From the NCBI RefSeq assembly GCF_002093665.1, contig NZ_MRWE01000004.1, positions 1 to 64,000 on the forward strand: DNA of 64,000 nucleotides, read 5' to 3'. The position numbers were made by a program, and so were the translations under genes. The notes beneath the pieces are model-generated. The model was not told the DNA's origin and searched no databases. It was given only the letters and a program-made list of their open reading frames with translations. Positions 5,295 through 51,636 of the stretch are shown piece after piece. The stretch comes from Rouxiella badensis (GTDB lineage: Bacteria; Pseudomonadota; Gammaproteobacteria; Enterobacterales; Enterobacteriaceae). How positions within the stretch are numbered: the stretch's first letter is position 1; every line of letters starts with the position of its first letter.

Positions 5295-6833
5295 TCAGCT
5301 GGCGTTTGCCTGTAAAATCACCGGTGGCTGCGTGACCAGCGTCTGTTCAAACCACTGTTCGAACGCCTTAATCTCATCTTCCGAAAGATGTAGCCCGTGT
5401 TTGGTGCGGCGTTTGAGAATGTCTTCAGGTCGCTGTGCCCACTCGTTTTTTACCAGGTAGCGCGCTTCGGCCTCGTAAAAATCGCCGCCGAAATGGCGTC
5501 CTAGGTCGGCGAGCGTGGTGGCCTCTGCCAGTAGATTGCCGGTTCGTGCGCCATAGAGGCGAGCATAGTGTTTACGCAATGACGGCGGCAACCACGGGTA
5601 ATCGGTTTTGAGTTTTTCGCTGAAGGCCTCGAAATCGGCGTTTTCAATCTCCCCGCCAGGCAGCACGCTTTCCCGCGTCCAGTCCGGTCCCATGTTCGGC
5701 AGAGCCTCTTTCAGCCGTTGCATCGCGTGCTCGGCCAGCTTGCGGAAGGTGGTTATCTTGCCGCCAAACACGTGCAGGATAGGCGCACCCCCCTGCGTAT
5801 CGAGGTCGAACACGTAGTCGCGCGTCACGGCAGACGGATTGCCCTTACCGTCGTCAAACAGCGGCCGCACGCCGGAGAAATGGGTTATCACGTCGTCGCG
5901 GCGCAGCTTGACCTTGAAGTAACGGTTTACCGCGTCCATCAGATACTGGATCTCGCTTTCGTCCGCCTTCACGTCCTCGGCGCGCCCCTCATAGGGAATA
6001 TCCGTGGTGCCAATCAGGGCCATGTCGCCCTCATACGGATTGATGAAAATCACCCGTTTATCATGATTCTGCACCAGATAGGCCTGCTGCCCTTCCCAGA
6101 ATTTTGGCACAATAATGTGCGAGCCTTTCACCAACCGCACGTTGCGCGCGCTGCGGGTGTGGGTTACCTGTTTGACGATATCCAGCACCCATGGACCGGC
6201 GGCATTAATAAGTACCTTGGCGAATACCTGACGCATCTCGCCGCTGTGTTCATCGCGCAGAAAAATCTCCCAGCGGTCCTTGCTGCGTTTCGCCATCACA
6301 CAGGCGGTGCGGGTAAGAATTGTCGCGCCCTTCTCTTTCGCACCAAGCGCGTTGAGTGTCACCATTCTCGCGTCATCGACCCAGCAGTCGGAATACTCGA
6401 AACCGCGATGATATTCGTCGAGCAAAGGCGTGCCTTCAGGGCTTCGGTCGAGATTGAGTGAACGCGTGCCGGGCAGTTTTTTTCGCCCTCCCAGGTGGTC
6501 ATAGAGGAACAGTCCAAGGCGTACCAGCCACGCGGGCCTGTCCTGCGGGCTGTGCGGCAGCACAAAGCGCATAGGCCAGATAATGTGACAGGCAGAGTTA
6601 AGCAACACCTCGCGTTCAATCAGCGCCTCGCGCACCAGACGAAATTCATAGTATTCGAGGTAGCGCAGACCGCCGTGAACCAGCTTGCCGGAACGGGAAG
6701 AGGTGCCCTGAGCGAGGTCGTCTTTCTCACACATCATCACCGACAGGCCACGTCCGGCTGCGTCGCGCGCAATACCGGCGCCGTTGATGCCGCCGCCAAT
6801 GACAAAAACGTCCAACAAGTCTGAATCACTCAT
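5295..6833 (-). CDS. eryB: Erythritol-4-phosphate dehydrogenase EryB (GlpD-like, FAD)
   Basis: This 512-residue flavoprotein resembles glycerol-3-phosphate dehydrogenase GlpD. It has an N-terminal dinucleotide-binding GGGINGAG (about 13-20), then GTSSRSGKLVHGGLRYLE, a central GVRPLFDDG, and VFGGKITTFRKLAE near residue 365, followed by a C-terminal helical domain. EryB oxidises L-erythritol-4-phosphate to L-3-tetrulose-4-phosphate and probably passes electrons to the quinone pool at the membrane. Its ATG overlaps the end of eryA by 8 bp and has an AGGAG ribosome site, so translation is coupled. A simple GlpD duplicate is less likely, given the neighbouring EryA and EryC. Confidence 0.88.
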   Translation of the reverse strand: MSDSDLLDVFVIGGGINGAGIARDAAGRGLSVMMCEKDDLAQGTSSRSGKLVHGGLRYLEYYEFRLVREALIEREVLLNSACHIIWPMRFVLPHSPQDRPAWLVRLGLFLYDHLGGRKKLPGTRSLNLDRSPEGTPLLDEYHRGFEYSDCWVDDARMVTLNALGAKEKGATILTRTACVMAKRSKDRWEIFLRDEHSGEMRQVFAKVLINAAGPWVLDIVKQVTHTRSARNVRLVKGSHIIVPKFWEGQQAYLVQNHDKRVIFINPYEGDMALIGTTDIPYEGRAEDVKADESEIQYLMDAVNRYFKVKLRRDDVITHFSGVRPLFDDGKGNPSAVTRDYVFDLDTQGGAPILHVFGGKITTFRKLAEHAMQRLKEALPNMGPDWTRESVLPGGEIENADFEAFSEKLKTDYPWLPPSLRKHYARLYGARTGNLLAEATTLADLGRHFGGDFYEAEARYLVKNEWAQRPEDILKRRTKHGLHLSEDEIKAFEQWFEQTLVTQPPVILQANAS

Positions 6834-44943: not shown

Positions 44944-45633
<690 letters not shown>

Positions 45634-45702: not shown

Positions 45703-46587
45703 TCAGGCAATGGCTGTCTGTTTTTTAGCCTGCAAGGTTTGCGAAATGACGGCAACGATAATGATACACCCGCCGATCACCGCGTTTGGCGTCGGTGCTT
45801 CGTTCAGGAAAACATAAATCCACAGTGGAGCCAGCGCGGTTTCGAGCAACAGGAAAAGTCCAGCATTCGCCGGTGGCACATAGCGGGTCGAAAGTGAAAT
45901 CAGACCCATGGCAACAGGAATGATCAGTGCCCCTTCAATCACCAGCCACAGCCACTGCTCTGCATGCAGGTCAGCAACGGTTGTCAGCAGGCCAGTACCA
46001 GCAAAGGCAGGCACAACAACCGAGGCCAGCACGCCGCCGAGCGAAGGCAGTCCCAACGTGCCCTGCTCGACGCGTGAGGCAAAGATAAACGCCAGCGCCA
46101 TACAGACGGCAGTTGCCAGAGCAAAGTAGTTGGCGGTTGCATCAACGCCCGCCTGCCTTCCTGACATCACGATAACCACGCCGAGCATACCGACTACCGC
46201 CGCAACCATCAGCGACTTGTCAATTTTAGTGGCAAAGAACAGCCGCGAAATAATCGCCGATACGAAGGGTGTTGAAGAGATAATCACCAGAACGGTTGCC
46301 ACATTGCCGCGATTAAGCGCGTTAACGAAACAGGCCGACGACGCGCAGAAAAACAGTACTGAGAGCAGGTTTTGTCGGGTTATCCACGGCACACCCAGCA
46401 CCGCACGACTCTTGGGGACTAACAACCACACGGCAAAGACCACTGCCCACATCAGCAATCCCCGCAGCACCACAATCAGCCACGAATTATGCACTGCCAT
46501 GAGACGGATAAATACCGAATCGGTACTGAGAATAACCCCACCGAGAATGCCGATCAGGTTACCGTTTACTGCACTTGATTTACTCAT
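45703..46587 (-). CDS. ycfD: EamA-family exporter, YcfD-like
   Basis: The roughly 294-residue protein has ten hydrophobic segments in two EamA repeats (about 10-145 and 155-290), typical of drug/metabolite transporters such as YdcZ and RhtA. ATG 46587 overlaps the upstream stop in an ATGA, so it is translationally coupled to the PLP-enzyme-like gene. As last gene of the operon it probably exports the product or gives self-resistance. The E. amylovora 6-thioguanine cluster, as I recall it, also includes a membrane exporter. Substrate inferred. Confidence 0.65.
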   Translation of the reverse strand: MSKSSAVNGNLIGILGGVILSTDSVFIRLMAVHNSWLIVVLRGLLMWAVVFAVWLLVPKSRAVLGVPWITRQNLLSVLFFCASSACFVNALNRGNVATVLVIISSTPFVSAIISRLFFATKIDKSLMVAAVVGMLGVVIVMSGRQAGVDATANYFALATAVCMALAFIFASRVEQGTLGLPSLGGVLASVVVPAFAGTGLLTTVADLHAEQWLWLVIEGALIIPVAMGLISLSTRYVPPANAGLFLLLETALAPLWIYVFLNEAPTPNAVIGGCIIIVAVISQTLQAKKQTAIA

Positions 46588-47462
46588 CTTATATTCCATA
46601 GTTTTGAAATATCTTCAAAAACACTGCCGGTACAATTTACCGGCCGTCCATGCTTTCCACGCATCCAGCGGGACAAGCGGAGGGTACCGCTATGTTCGAA
46701 ATAGCTTCCGTTCATCTCCTTCACCGCCTTGCGCTGCTCGTGCGAAAATGACGGCACCTTGAAACAGCAGAAAGGCAGACCCGGTTCGCCGATTGACTGC
46801 AGTCTTTCGCCGTCGGGCAGCCAAAGATCGATGGCATCCACGCTGGCAACGTTGTAGGGCTGCCACCCGGGGGTATTAATCGTTTCGAGCGCCATCGTGA
46901 GCGGGGTTTCCGACACCGTCGCTCGCTCGAAGAGACGCAGCTCGCTGCGTAGCAGCATGCTGTACTCTTCCGGGCGCACCGCAATCAGCGTCAGGCCTAC
47001 CGCGACCGAGGCGTGCTTGTGCAACGGCGCTAAAAATATCGAACCCTGCTTAATCAGGTCATCATGCATGTTGGTCGCAAAACTGTGAGATGCGTCCACC
47101 ACGATGCCCTTCGCCGGATGATGAAGTCGGTTCAACTCGCCGGTGTAAGGGTTAACGTGCGTCACAATCTGCACGCCGCTGTTTTCTCTGCCTTCCGCCA
47201 CTGCGTGGGGAAAGAGCATATCAATCGGCTGATAATGCTGATGATTCGCCAGGCTCAGTGAAATATTTTGCTTATGTAGTAAGTGGGACAGCATCGCCAA
47301 CCCGACGCTGACCGACTGCACCATAAACACATCGTATTGCTCCAGACGGTAAACTTCGGTGAGTTTCTCCCGCAGAACTTCACGCAGCTGATTCACTTTT
47401 TTGTAGAAGTGTCCGCCGCCGTGCAGCTTCTGGAGCTGGGGTGACAATGCTGAAGGATCCAT
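46584..47462 (-). CDS. ycfC: Short PLP-enzyme-like protein (class V aminotransferase-like), YcfC-like
   Basis: The 292-residue protein looks like a shortened fold-type I PLP enzyme. VVDASHSF (Asp123, His126) suits the PLP pyridine-binding Asp, and APLHKHAS (Lys149) suits the Schiff-base lysine. It is about 100 residues shorter than cysteine desulfurases. The ATG overlaps the Nudix stop (TAATG), and its stop overlaps the exporter start. In the E. amylovora 6-thioguanine pathway a PLP-dependent protein mobilises sulfur for the thioamide-forming enzyme; that role is inferred here. It might instead belong to the poorly described DUF6024 group. Confidence 0.6.
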   Translation of the reverse strand: MDPSALSPQLQKLHGGGHFYKKVNQLREVLREKLTEVYRLEQYDVFMVQSVSVGLAMLSHLLHKQNISLSLANHQHYQPIDMLFPHAVAEGRENSGVQIVTHVNPYTGELNRLHHPAKGIVVDASHSFATNMHDDLIKQGSIFLAPLHKHASVAVGLTLIAVRPEEYSMLLRSELRLFERATVSETPLTMALETINTPGWQPYNVASVDAIDLWLPDGERLQSIGEPGLPFCCFKVPSFSHEQRKAVKEMNGSYFEHSGTLRLSRWMRGKHGRPVNCTGSVFEDISKLWNIR

Positions 47463-47860
47463 TAGTCGATCAACTCCTTCTGGTAGAGCAAAGGAAGCAC
47501 GTTGTCGCGAAACACTGAGCCCACGCCGACTTCGCAAGGCGGCTTACGGTAATTGACCCAGGCAATCTCGGCGATTTCCGAGCTGGCGACAGGCTGACCG
47601 ACGACTTCAACCTGATAAACGTGGTTCTCGATGGCTACGGATTCGAACTCCGCGATGCCATGAAACAGGCCGAAAGGCTTGATTTCTGCCGCTTCAACGT
47701 TGAGCTCTTCCTTAAGTTCACGGCGCAGGCAGGTGAGGTGATCCTCACCCTGAAGAGGTTTTCCGCCCGGTGAAATAAACACGTCGGTCCCCTCTTTACG
47801 CGTCAACAGCAGCGAACGGTTGCGAATAATAATCGCCGAACACTTGATGATAGTTTTCAT
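47462..47860 (-). CDS. ycfB: Nudix hydrolase, YcfB-like
   Basis: The 132-residue protein has a Nudix box at residues 33-55 (GKPLQGE then RRELKEELNV) that fits the consensus except that the last Gly is Asn54. The fold begins IIKCSAIIIRNRSLLLTRKEG. It should cleave a nucleoside diphosphate linkage, possibly processing a thiopurine nucleotide. ATG 47860 has a GGAG site 6 bases upstream; a GTG right after the ycfA stop is the alternative start. It is coupled to the next gene by a one-base overlap. Confidence 0.7.
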   Translation of the reverse strand: MKTIIKCSAIIIRNRSLLLTRKEGTDVFISPGGKPLQGEDHLTCLRRELKEELNVEAAEIKPFGLFHGIAEFESVAIENHVYQVEVVGQPVASSEIAEIAWVNYRKPPCEVGVGSVFRDNVLPLLYQKELID

Positions 47861-47872
47861 CACAGGCTCCAC

Positions 47873-48583
47873 TCAGGCAGCTTCAGCGGGAGAGCTGGCC
47901 ACTTTCTTGGCCAACGTCAGGGTTTCACCCGACAGGAATTTGACAATATTCAGCGCCAGCGGCGTTTTCTCGCGCAGGTAGGCCAGAATGGTGTCGTCGC
48001 TTGGGGTGGTAAAGCTATCACCGAAGATGCTCACACCTTCCAGTGACTTGGTGGAGATCCCAAGCTGCAGCAGACGATATTTCACGTCGTCGGAAGACTG
48101 GGCAAATTCATATATAGGTGAGTGATACTGAATGCCGAATTCTTTCATCAGATCGACCAGATATTCTTTCGCGACCAGACGCTGCTCCGGGAATTCCTGC
48201 TGATAATGGGTAATGCCGTCATTAATGACGTCAATATCATGACGACGACAGAAATCAATAAGATGTGCGTGTATTGCCAATTTTTCGCCGAGCAGCACCA
48301 GATTTTTTCTATACTTAAGAATATCTCCTTCGATATTCTCGATAGCGATACTGCGGAACGTCCCGCTAATATCTTCAACCGTGTGTTCCACGACCAATTC
48401 ACCAAAACGGTTTTTAAGTTCATCAACACGATGAGAAAGAATGCCGCGATGCAGGGAGCAACCGCTGTTAGCGGAGTACAGATGAACCGGGATACCCTGT
48501 AACATTAAATAACAAGCTGCCAAGGTACTGTCACGACCACCGGTAAACATCACAAGCTGAGTCTTTACGGAAGTATTATTCAT
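47873..48583 (-). CDS. ycfA: PP-loop ATP pyrophosphatase (thioamide-forming, YcfA-like)
   Basis: The 236-residue protein has an N-terminal PP-loop MFTGGRDST (about 12-20) followed by an adenine nucleotide alpha-hydrolase-like domain, with [17 protein letters not shown] near the middle. Such enzymes adenylate a carbonyl or base and replace it with sulfur or nitrogen (QueC, ThiI, TsuA families). In E. amylovora, YcfA installs sulfur on a guanine nucleotide to make 6-thioguanine. It is the first gene of a four-gene operon with Nudix, PLP-like and exporter genes, and a LysR gene is divergent. The PP-loop assignment is firm; the 6-thioguanine role is inferred from cluster content. Confidence 0.65.
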
Positions 48584-48787
48584 ATTGATCCTTAATATTG
48601 TCTGAATACCCGGGTGAAAGGCACGGTTTTAAAGGGTTATAGGTTGTCCCGCCACGCTCGTTACTAAGACTAGCTCCGCCATCCTGGCGACTCGTTTTGG
48701 GACAAGGTCGAGACTAAAGGGTTTTTTTCACGTTAGAAAATGATATAAACAGACAGACAAGTTGAAATTAACTAACAAGGTGGCGCT
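48584..48787. promoter_or_regulatory. Divergent control region of the ycf-like cluster
   Basis: This 204-bp region lies between ycfA and the LysR gene. TTGTCCC (48644-48650) and GGGACAA (48699-48705) are exact complements 48 bp apart, on either side of the midpoint, and may be paired LysR sites. The LysR side is AT-rich near 48720-48780. Confidence 0.45.
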
Positions 48788-49660
48788 ATGTCTGATCTCC
48801 CTTCACTGCGCGCGTTGCACTACTTTAAACAGGCGGCACTGTTTGAAAGCTTCAGCGCCGCCGCTGAATCCTTAAATATCACTCACAGTGCAATCAGCCA
48901 TCAAATAAAGAATCTTGAGTCCTGGTTAGGGACGCCTTTATTTAAACGCACGGCCGGACGGGTTTATTTAACCCAGGACGGAGAGACCTTAAAGAAATGC
49001 TGTGAACAGGTATTTAGAAATATCGAGGCAACCTGCAAAGAAATAAAAACCCGCGAAGAGAACAGTCTTATTATTTCCTGCGCGCCCAGTTTCTTGTCAC
49101 AGTGGTTAATTCCCCGTATCGCGCGTTTTTCGCAACGGCATGAAAATATCGCCCTGACATTCCAGACCCATGTAAACATTGAAAATATTCAGGATGAACG
49201 CACGGATATTTTAATCAAAAGTAATGAAACACCGCTGTCGGATGAAATAGAGGCGACGCTGATTACCGTCGATTATATTGGGCCCGTCTGTTCGCCAGAT
49301 TTCCGTCATCGCTTTACCTACGAGACCGACTTCGCCACCCTTCCACTGCTGCATGCCGACACCAAAATCAATGCCTGGCAAGAATGGGCAAGAAAAACCA
49401 ATACGCGGGGAGACTTTATTTCGGGCAAGCATTTTGACAATTTGACGCTGGCCATTCAGGCCGCAAAAAATGGTTTGGGAATTATTATGACGCCGCAGAT
49501 TTTGGTCAAAAAAGAGATTCAGGAAGGGAGTTTAATTGCGCCGCTGGGCTTTACCGAGGTCGACAGAGCCACCTATATGCTGGTGAAACGTTCGCGTAGC
49601 CACGAGAAAGAGATCACGCTTTTCCGCCACTGGCTATTGGAAGAGGCCAGCCGGGGTTAA
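48788..49660 (+). CDS. LysR-family regulator (GcvA-like) of the ycf-like cluster
   Basis: The 290-residue LysR protein has its helix-turn-helix at about 8-65 (LRALHYFKQAALFESFSAAAESLNITHSAISHQIKNLESWLG), as in GcvA/AmpR, and an effector domain at about 90-285. It is divergent from ycfA and convergent with htpG. It probably activates the operon; the inducer is unknown, possibly the thiopurine product itself. It is AT-richer than the neighbouring core genes. Confidence 0.8.
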   Translation: MSDLPSLRALHYFKQAALFESFSAAAESLNITHSAISHQIKNLESWLGTPLFKRTAGRVYLTQDGETLKKCCEQVFRNIEATCKEIKTREENSLIISCAPSFLSQWLIPRIARFSQRHENIALTFQTHVNIENIQDERTDILIKSNETPLSDEIEATLITVDYIGPVCSPDFRHRFTYETDFATLPLLHADTKINAWQEWARKTNTRGDFISGKHFDNLTLAIQAAKNGLGIIMTPQILVKKEIQEGSLIAPLGFTEVDRATYMLVKRSRSHEKEITLFRHWLLEEASRG

Positions 49661-49696: not shown

Positions 49697-51571
49697 TTAC
49701 GCTTGCAGCAGGGTGTTCATACGACGGATGAACTGGTTAGGGTCCTCCAGCGTACCGCGCTCTGCAAACAGAGCCTGGTCAAGCAGCAGCTCTACCCACT
49801 CTGAGAACTGGCTCTCCTGGGTTTCATCTGCAGCACGCTTGACCAGCGCATGCTCAGGGTTCAGCTCAAAGATGTATTTCACCTCTGGCGCTTCCTGACC
49901 CGCAGCGGCAAACAGCTTGGCCATCTGCGTGCTCATCTCGTCCGCACCGGTGGTAACGATAGCCGGGGTGTCGGTCAGACGATGCGTTAAACGCACCTCT
50001 TTAACACGATCGCCCAACAGGGTTTTGACGCGTTCAACGAACGGCTCAAGCGCCTTGTCGGCATCTTTCTGCTGTTCGTTCTTCTCGTCGGCCAGCTTGT
50101 CGAGAGACTCATCGGCCTTGCTCACAGACTGGAACACCTTACCGTCGAACTCGGTCAGGTAGCTCATCATCCATTCGTCGATGCGGTCTGACAACAGCAG
50201 AACTTCAATGCCTTTCTTGCGGAAGAGCTCAAGATGCGGGCTATTTTTCGCCGCGGCATAGCTGTCGGCGGTGATGAAGTAAATCTTGTCCTGCCCTTCA
50301 ACCATGTTGGCAACATAGTCTTCCAGCGACAGCGTCTGCTCGGAAGAGTCATTGCGGGTACTGGCGAAACGCAGCAGCTTGGCGATGGTTTCTTTGTTGC
50401 TGCTGTCTTCTGCCGGACCTTCTTTCAAGACCAGACCGAACTGCTTCCAGAACTGCAGGTATTTTTCTGCATCGTCTTTCGCCAGTTTTTCGAGCATCTG
50501 TAGCGCACGCTTGCTCAGTGCATTACGCAGATTCTGCGTCACGCGGCTGTCCTGCAGAATTTCACGGGAAACGTTAAGCGGCAGGTCGTTGGAGTCTATC
50601 AGGCCACGCACAAAGCGCAGGTAATTAGGCATGAACTGCTCGGCTTCGTCCATGATAAAGACGCGCTGCACGTACAGTTTCAGACCGTGCTTGTGGTCGC
50701 GATTCCACATGTCCCACGGTGCCTGTGAAGGGATATACAGCAGGCTGGTATATTCCTGCTTACCTTCAACGCGGTTGTGGCTCCAGCTCAGCGGATCGCT
50801 AAAGTCATGAGAGAGGTGTTTGTAAAACTCTTTGTATTCGTCGTCGCTCACTTCTGTGCGACCGCGCGTCCACAGCGCCTGCGCCTTGTTGATCTGCTCC
50901 CAGGTAACGGTATCGTCTTCTTCGTTACGGGTCTCGATTTCAACCGGCAGTGCGATGTGATCAGAATATTTGCTGATAATGGAACGCACGCGCCAGCTGT
51001 CCAGGAACTCGTCCTGATCTTCACGCAGGTGCAGGGTAATTTCGGTGCCGCGAGAGGCTTTCTCGATGTCGGCCAGGGTGTATTCCCCTTCACCGGCAGA
51101 TTCCCAAAATACGCCTTCATCGGCGCTAACGCCTGCTGCACGGGTGCGAACGGTGACTTTATCAGCCACGATAAACGCAGAGTAGAAGCCCACGCCGAAC
51201 TGGCCGATCAGCTGGCTGTCTTTGGCCTGCTCGGATCCGACTGACTGTAGGAAGGCTTTGGTGCCCGATTTAGCAATGGTCCCGAGGTTGTCGATCACTT
51301 CATCACGGGTCATACCGATGCCGTTGTCGCTCAGCGTCAGGGTACGTTTTTCTTTGTCAAACGACACACGAACGCGCAGCTCGGCGTCGCCTTCGTAAAG
51401 TACAGGCTTTGACAGCGCGCAAAAACGCAGTTTATCGGCCGCGTCCGAGGCGTTGGAAATTAGCTCACGCAGGAAGATTTCTTTATTCGAATAAAGCGAG
51501 TGGATCATCAGGTGAAGCAGTTGTTTAACTTCTGACTGGAATCCGCGGGTCTCTTGTCCTTTCATACTCAT
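49697..51571 (-). CDS. htpG: Hsp90 chaperone HtpG
   Basis: The roughly 624-residue protein has the GHKL ATPase domain (about 1-215) with [26 protein letters not shown] and [11 protein letters not shown]. The middle domain (about 230-490) has the catalytic Arg region, and the C-terminal dimer domain ends in MNTLLQA. It refolds proteins with DnaK under stress. ATG 51571 (MSMKGQ) fits GAGG 6 bases upstream better than the MKGQ start used in E. coli. A sigma-32 promoter lies upstream. Confidence 0.97.
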
Positions 51572-51636
51572 CAAATACCTCAATCAAACCGTTTGAGTGG
51601 TTAAAAACGTAACTCTGTAAAAACAGACTGAGTATG

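Follow-up and report, generated by a model that had tools for sequence, protein, structure and literature searches.

An orthologue of the Erwinia amylovora ycf cluster at the htpG-adk site of Rouxiella badensis as a probable source of 6-thioguanine

The system described so far that most resembles the locus analyzed here is the ycf cluster of Erwinia amylovora, which is controlled by YcfR. According to the available parts of one review, 6-thioguanosine formation depends, both in vivo and in vitro, on YcfA, a PP-loop ATPase, and on YcfC, a distant relative of the PLP cysteine desulfurases (PMC6225789). Accounts of the minimal set vary, as the accessible text of another report cites YcfA and YcfB, rather than YcfA and YcfC, as necessary and sufficient (PMC7994395). 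The same text describes 6-thioguanine in staphylococci, where it is made via a different six-gene cluster, the tgs operon (tgsA-F) of Staphylococcus chromogenes. By the roles listed in its Table 1, this operon resembles the ycf genes in having a PLP desulfurase, a PP-loop-type sulfur transferase, a Nudix protein, and an efflux function, but it comprises six genes, two of them for Nudix proteins and one for a HAD phosphatase (PMC7994395), while the operon described here consists of four genes accompanied by a regulator.

Our window, the whole stretch of 64,000 nucleotides of R. badensis DNA that was analyzed, contains the genes listed in the table below. The preliminary description had placed five genes between adk and htpG, had taken four of them to be translationally coupled, and had assigned to the set the same five functions as the E. 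amylovora ycf cluster, and the comparison bore out each of these points. All five reading frames were found, and four of them fit Pfam families, the short PLP-enzyme-like protein matching DUF6024; the PP-loop protein, YcfA, has no Pfam family above the cut-off. As for the coupling, the ycfB/ycfC and ycfC/ycfD pairs overlap by TAATG (47462) and ATGA (46587), respectively, and the ycfA stop is separated by 12 bases, with GGAG upstream, from the likely ycfB start. In many relatives, the match to YcfB begins no earlier than residue 5 of the longer open frame, which corresponds to the ATG at 47860 and makes this codon the more likely start.

Features of the ycf locus and its flanks in the R. badensis window
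Feature	Position	Strand	Support
ycfD orthologue, EamA exporter, final gene of the operon	45703..46587 (frame 45703-46599)	-	Pfam EamA 8e-20
ycfC orthologue, DUF6024, PLP-fold	46584..47462	-	Pfam DUF6024 3.9e-131; 317 bits to PDB 9kq4
ycfB orthologue, Nudix hydrolase	47462..47860 (frame open from 47872)	-	Pfam NUDIX 6.1e-13
ycfA orthologue, PP-loop ATP pyrophosphatase	47873..48583	-	81% identical to reference locus; 405 bits to PDB 9kq6
18-base ycfR-ycfA intergenic element TGTCTGTTTATATCATTT	48738..48755	-	32 bases before ycfR
ycfR orthologue, divergent LysR regulator	48788..49660	+	Pfam HTH_1 5e-21, LysR_substrate 2e-23
adk, flank, also beside reference cluster	44944..45588	-	
htpG, flank, also beside reference cluster	49697..51583	-	

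As an E. amylovora-type reference we used a locus whose YcfA and YcfC show zero differences from the PDB chains 9kq6 (YcfA; 222 residues aligned) and 9kq4 (named YcfC; 288 residues aligned), these identities being the reason for treating it as such. In this reference, five ycf genes lie between htpG and adk in the same order and orientation as in the window, and the encoded proteins are 72% (YcfR), 81% (YcfA), 72% (YcfB), 52% (YcfC), and 62% (YcfD) identical to those of R. badensis, alongside 85% for HtpG, 86% for Adk, and 67% for HemH among the flanking proteins. The locus shares with the E. amylovora type a PP-loop in YcfA, the presumed PLP lysine in YcfC, a Nudix protein and an EamA exporter within the operon, a divergent LysR regulator, the htpG-adk site, and a shared intergenic element, and it differs from the reference in its 19 to 48% protein divergence and in that its product and regulation are deduced here from the genes. 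Orthology of the five genes to the E. amylovora ycf cluster, order and site included, is thus strongly supported by these comparisons.

YcfA, which is encoded by a single copy in the genome, aligns with PDB 9kq6 from residue 2 to 223 (222 residues) with no gap, carries the PP-loop motif FTGGRDST, and preserves the cysteines 24, 42, and 112 of the alignment with the PDB chain. YcfC matches 9kq4 over nearly its full length and preserves the Asp123/His126 motif and the His148-Lys149 pair, in which Lys149, lying inside an HKH motif, presumably binds PLP. The Asp and His-Lys motifs of the cysteine desulfurases SufS and IscS fall in register with those of YcfC in hhalign, a comparison of which we used the register alone because its probabilities are poor (0.3 and 1.3%; E values of 0.2 and 0.04), and this register is supported by Aminotran_5 matches in 2 of 14 YcfC family members. 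In contrast to these desulfurases, which have 398 to 406 residues, YcfC has 292 and matches their profiles weakly. It is probably a PLP-fold enzyme that mobilizes sulfur.

These similarities lead us to propose, with a probability of about 0.86, that this Rouxiella counterpart of the E. amylovora ycf cluster produces 6-thioguanine. The steps of such a pathway are modeled on the E. amylovora literature and on what is known of the protein families: YcfC would mobilize the sulfur of a donor molecule, most likely cysteine; YcfA would use ATP to activate the 6-oxygen of a guanine nucleotide, which sulfur would then replace; YcfB would remove phosphates before the base is released; and YcfD would export 6-thioguanine, while YcfR would regulate the four genes by way of the conserved element between ycfR and ycfA. 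Since YcfC and YcfD have diverged from the reference further than YcfA, the sulfur donor or the exported cargo could have shifted. For the same reason, together with divergence in the processing steps, an orthologous cluster might yield a related thiopurine or another thioamide, such as a thiolated nucleoside left as such, and within the Rouxiella group, too, YcfC (74-86% identity between the window and three named loci) and YcfD (85-89%) vary more than YcfA (94-96%). We consider a different product improbable, however, as YcfA, the expected chooser of the substrate, is the best conserved of the proteins and the five genes stay together under purifying selection.

In the regulatory region, the element TGTCTGTTTATATCATTT occurs in all 21 ycfR-ycfA intergenic regions compared, as an exact copy in 18, with one mismatch in two, and with three mismatches in one, always 30 to 36 bases before ycfR. 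The window holds one site at up to three mismatches, where 0.01 would be expected by chance, and we presume that the element is an operator for YcfR and/or the ycfR promoter.

The cluster is not particular to this genome: YcfA to YcfD are found in all six genomes of the genus examined, and the set is also present in Ewingella, Hafnia psychrotolerans, several Erwinia and Pantoea genomes, and others. The preliminary description had called the cluster an insertion between adk and htpG, which are adjacent in E. coli; relative to E. coli alone this description stands, but a separate insertion in Rouxiella does not, given that the reference occupies the same site and the trees are largely concordant. 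A tree of the ycf cluster and one of HtpG, Adk, and HemH, both built for 21 loci by a quick method with no bootstrap, have 14 of 18 splits in common, and the four discordant splits involve close relatives and the position of E. aphidicola. We therefore regard the cluster as an old resident and reject a recent insertion into this genome as the main account. On these trees, the cluster is old at the htpG-adk site and appears to have travelled along with its flanks, and both may have been transferred jointly between the Rouxiella/Ewingella and Erwinia groups. The base composition gives no clear foreign signal, with GC at 0.53 to 0.54 in ycfD, ycfC, and ycfB, 0.47 in ycfA and ycfR, and 0.54 in the window. 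The cluster can nevertheless move, as two genomes carry it with no htpG or adk match within the 15 kb examined, in one case near an IS110-type transposase.

The occurrence of the cluster also bears on whether it is active at all. Decay is common elsewhere, as six genomes have partial or broken ycf sets and a YcfA profile finds its target in just 22 of the 37 genomes in the genus of genome G249, and the Rouxiella cluster might likewise look intact by descent while being silent, decaying, and no longer expressed or useful. This seems quite improbable, since besides its presence throughout the genus the cluster has five intact frames in each of the named loci of R. silvae, R. aceris, and Serratia sp. 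M24T3, the intergenic element is preserved, and dN/dS between Rouxiella loci lies between 0.007 and 0.123 for ycfA to ycfD and does not exceed 0.123 for any of the five genes wherever computable among the four loci, in pairs whose dS mostly exceeds 1, with 4 of the 30 values saturated. The cluster has been conserved over the long term. A further alternative would be a tRNA- or cofactor-thiolation operon with no antimetabolite connection; tRNA thiolation typically employs PP-loop and PLP sulfur enzymes, and there is a weak NCBIfam ThiI match (E 0.01, far below the cut-off). Such a function is extremely improbable in view of the scattered occurrence of YcfA (18 of 392 family genomes), the accompanying exporter and LysR regulator, and an architecture shared with the 6-thioguanine-linked cluster.

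In some genomes, YcfC, with or without YcfR, is retained between htpG and adk while YcfA was not found. The His-Lys pair of YcfC is present in 38 of 38 genomes with YcfA and in 2 of 40 in which YcfA is absent (one locus per genome, the wider motif survey covering 110 loci with some genomes entered twice), an association for which the tree needs just two changes in the motif and four in YcfA and for which an independent-pairs test had too few pairs to reach significance. In one large genus (g170), a Lys-lacking YcfC, YcfR, and the 18-base element persist at the htpG-adk site under purifying selection, although dN/dS in several wider pairs is saturated or higher (0.17-0.33) and the medians are descriptive because species recur among the pairs of a set, near-duplicate pairs included. 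The YcfC copies came from 31 genomes of this genus, the best 30 of 52 positives plus one further genome (G333), with the other 21 positives, three of which have short or interrupted copies, left aside; in two of the 31 loci, a stop lies inside the profile match and the open frame alone was used. The YcfA profile gave no positive of any kind in 60 genomes of this genus. The same profile does find YcfA elsewhere, at the family and genus counts given above. The persistence of this Lys-lacking YcfC with YcfR and the element points to a pseudoenzyme that may have taken on another role, and we speculate, at somewhat less than even odds, that YcfC in this genus is a stand-alone pseudoenzyme and that the YcfC-YcfR pair, having outlived its parent pathway, serves a regulatory, sensing, or protective function, perhaps against thiopurines of neighbors.

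Thiopurines are immunosuppressants. In the portions available of the respective reports, R. badensis appears as an onion bulb-rot pathogen (PMC9749400), as a biocontrol strain whose antifungal activity is diffusible (PMC8375033), and as a strain that is associated with blueberries, ferments them, and affects immunity in mice (PMC8258396, PMC9966222). In the accessible text of the last of these, 4T1 tumor cells were scored as colonies in 60 uM 6-thioguanine (PMC9966222), so that the effects on 4T1 cells are not explained by this compound. The available Rouxiella literature shows no sign of thioguanine production, the one report that names both the genus and the compound using 6-thioguanine as a selection reagent, and the accessible antiSMASH tables (PMC9749400 Table 5; part of PMC8375033 Table 4) list no such cluster, a type that antiSMASH may not detect. 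Likewise, the available parts of a study of iron-limitation metabolites in Rouxiella sp. Arv20#4.1 (PMC6761702) make no mention of thioguanine or purines, and those of an Ewingella genome report (PMC7281767) none of 6-thioguanine or thiopurine.

The preliminary interpretation holds for the most part. Its suggestion that thiopurine production would here extend beyond the plant pathogen is preceded by the staphylococci already in print (PMC7994395), and production by Rouxiella itself is inferred. Because loci in intact, partial, and orphan states share a single position, the loss of the pathway can be tested directly, as can the survival of YcfR and YcfC in its absence. If the cluster works, Rouxiella and Ewingella would be a second group within the Enterobacterales, besides Erwinia and its kin, that secretes a drug-like purine antimetabolite.

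The preliminary description had claimed a putative 6-thioguanine gene set between adk and htpG, and this arrangement is confirmed: four minus-strand genes with tight junctions lie there beside a divergent LysR gene (see table). Reading outward from the shared intergenic region, the four encode a PP-loop, a Nudix, a DUF6024 and an EamA protein, and the junctions, as read from the sequence, are 12 bases (A-B), TAATG (B-C) and ATGA (C-D). A search of the genome found the PP-loop protein to be single-copy. The closest named relatives of the locus are those of Rouxiella silvae, Serratia sp. M24T3 and R. aceris, with which the flank tree groups it and whose HtpG proteins are 94-96% identical to that of the window.

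Features of the ycf cluster and its flanks in the window
Feature	Position	Strand	Remark
adk	44944-45588	-	flank of cluster
YcfD, EamA transporter	45703-46599	-	domain assignment
YcfC, DUF6024 protein	46584-47462	-	domain assignment
YcfB, Nudix protein	47462-47872	-	domain assignment; ATG at 47860 more likely
YcfA, PP-loop protein	47873-48583	-	innermost, beside shared intergenic region
18-base element TGTCTGTTTATATCATTT	48738-48755		ycfR-ycfA intergenic region
YcfR, LysR regulator	48788-49660	+	divergent from the four minus-strand genes
htpG	49697-51583	-	flank of cluster

The cluster genuinely belongs to an established natural-product family. Its PP-loop protein matches PDB 9kq6 (405 bits) and its DUF6024 protein matches 9kq4 (317 bits), which was deposited under the name YcfC, both chains presumably originating from Erwinia amylovora. 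All five reference genes came from one locus, L100 of genome G418, and the identity of its YcfA to 9kq6 (222 aligned residues) and of its YcfC to 9kq4 (288 aligned residues), in each case without a difference, marks it at the sequence level as E. amylovora or a very close relative of that species. The comparison with E. amylovora YcfA-D that the preliminary description had called for came out in its favor, as L100 has the same arrangement (htpG, divergent LysR, A, B, C, D, adk, hemH) and the window proteins are 72% (YcfR), 81% (A), 72% (B), 52% (C) and 62% (D) identical to it, next to 85, 86 and 67% for the flanking HtpG, Adk and HemH. Between the window and the three named Rouxiella-group loci, YcfC has evolved much faster than YcfA (74-86% versus 94-96% identity), although the two enzymes would share one pathway.

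In the window YcfA, FTGGRDST is kept, as are three cysteines of the solved chain (24, 42 and 112). The window YcfC retains Asp123, His126 and His148-Lys149, which line up with this genome's own SufS and IscS in weak hhalign matches; Aminotran_5 is matched by 2 of 14 YcfC family members. Judging from their families, YcfB would trim, YcfD would export, and YcfR, which we take to be the regulator of the E. amylovora ycf cluster, would control the genes. A review (PMC6225789) describes YcfC and YcfA, distant relatives of PLP cysteine desulfurases and of PP-loop tRNA thiolases, respectively, as needed to make 6-thioguanosine both in vivo and in vitro.

All six genomes searched from the window's genus carry DUF6024, and the four genes A-D occur together in every one. 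Among 392 genomes drawn from the family, DUF6024 occurs in 25 and YcfA profile matches in 18, while the genus of G249, probably Erwinia from its likeness to named loci, has YcfC in 27 and YcfA in 22 of 37 genomes. Two short YcfA peptide patterns, whose use is no census, retrieved 21 named loci, 18 of which (L028-L034, L036-L046; among them Ewingella americana, Hafnia psychrotolerans, several Erwinia and one Pantoea) have all five genes, flanked by htpG and adk as expected. L035 is truncated by a contig end, L047 (Pantoea coffeiphila) has htpG unmatched within its stretch, and in L048 only R and A are present. According to one paper, E. tasmaniensis has ycfA and E. piriflorinigrans lacks it (PMC5663808). 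Two further complete clusters, L114 (G032; neighbors arsB and mdoG) and L115 (G116; neighbor an IS110-family transposase), have htpG and adk unmatched within the 15 kb fetched. L116 (G127) and L117 (G275) form a second, diverged clade with YcfA 70-72% identical, a distant LysR, and a YcfC only about 22-24% identical yet bearing the HKH motif; htpG and adk were unseen in the fetched stretches.

Cluster and flanks share most of their history: for 21 loci, the R+A+B+C+D and HtpG+Adk+HemH trees have 14 of 18 splits in common, the discordant ones involving close relatives and E. aphidicola. The Rouxiella/Ewingella and Erwinia clusters may go back to one ancestor followed by many losses, or the whole stretch may have been exchanged between the two groups.

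Unlike the rest of the ycfR-ycfA intergenic region, much of which is unalignable between the two groups, the 18-base element is identical in 18 of the 21 loci (one mismatch in two, three in one) at a constant 30-36 bases before ycfR; the window holds a single site at up to three mismatches, with 0.01 expected. The element accompanies YcfR. It recurs at 0-1 mismatch in the six retrieved Erwinia-type partial loci whose YcfR frame is intact (L102-L106, L113), at four mismatches in G025, and at 1-2 mismatches in all 31 loci examined from genus g170, 32-33 bases before ycfR in the R-C intergenic region. It was not found in G060, G199 and G431, where YcfR is missing or broken (best 6 mismatches anywhere in the stretch). 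In G127 and G275, where LysR identity is just 32-33%, it was likewise not found where it would be expected. Because its distance to ycfR is fixed, the element may in part be no more than the ycfR promoter.

Twelve genomes from the family (392) and G249-genus (37) searches have YcfC with YcfA unmatched. In G431 the YcfC frame is intact and R, A, B and D are in fragments; in G440, A is a stump, D is gone, and R, B and C remain. YcfC stands beside R in eight genomes, shortened in G147, G425, G421 and G447 and diverged in G025, G267, G333 and G392, whereas G060 and G199 carry YcfC only. In g170, the genus of G267, DUF6024 occurs in 52 of 60 genomes, and a profile search matched YcfA in 0 of 60, a set-wide blank to be read with caution. 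In the g170 loci examined (the best-scoring 30 of the 52 DUF6024-positive genomes, plus G333), a LysR gene adjoins DUF6024 with adk nearby in 31 of 31, and an htpG match is in reach in 30. Orphan YcfC lacking the His-Lys pair lies between htpG and adk in L023-L025, L109-L112 and L120-L147 (g21, g170) and in L107-L108 (g56). The opposite reduction is seen in L113 (G445, uncultured Erwinia-type), which retains YcfR, the element and an intact YcfA frame (5828-6505), with no YcfB, YcfC or YcfD match at the site; L048 has the same arrangement.

In a tally of 78 loci, one per genome, which are not independent observations because the tree needs only two motif changes, all 38 YcfA-bearing genomes have the His-Lys pair, compared with 2 of the 40 that lack YcfA, namely the partly eroded G431 and G440. 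Elsewhere the pair is replaced by HE, HL, HR, NL, DR, DN, GS, NR or DK, the last, in two genomes, keeping the lysine without the histidine. In this tally the presumed PLP lysine of YcfC tracks the pathway. Median dN/dS is 0.10 for orphan g170 YcfC (range 0.05-0.41; 53 pairs, dS 0.15-1.0) and 0.09 for cluster YcfC (0.065-0.204; 34 pairs), the pairs being non-independent in both sets, and a g56 pair gives 0.07 at dS 1.5; by this measure the orphan copies are still constrained. Slow decay is the plain alternative, and the shortened copies fit it; a conserved YcfC without its PLP lysine, beside YcfR and the element, resembles a pseudoenzyme that serves a different role.

As far as the literature searched shows, the cluster is unreported in the window's genus: the matches listed include no report of it in Rouxiella or Ewingella, full-text searches found neither Ewingella with thioguanine nor any mention of DUF6024, and the sole match for Rouxiella with thioguanine employs the drug for counting metastatic tumor cells (PMC9966222). 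The cluster itself is of moderate interest; more interesting is the series of partial and orphan loci that occupies its site.
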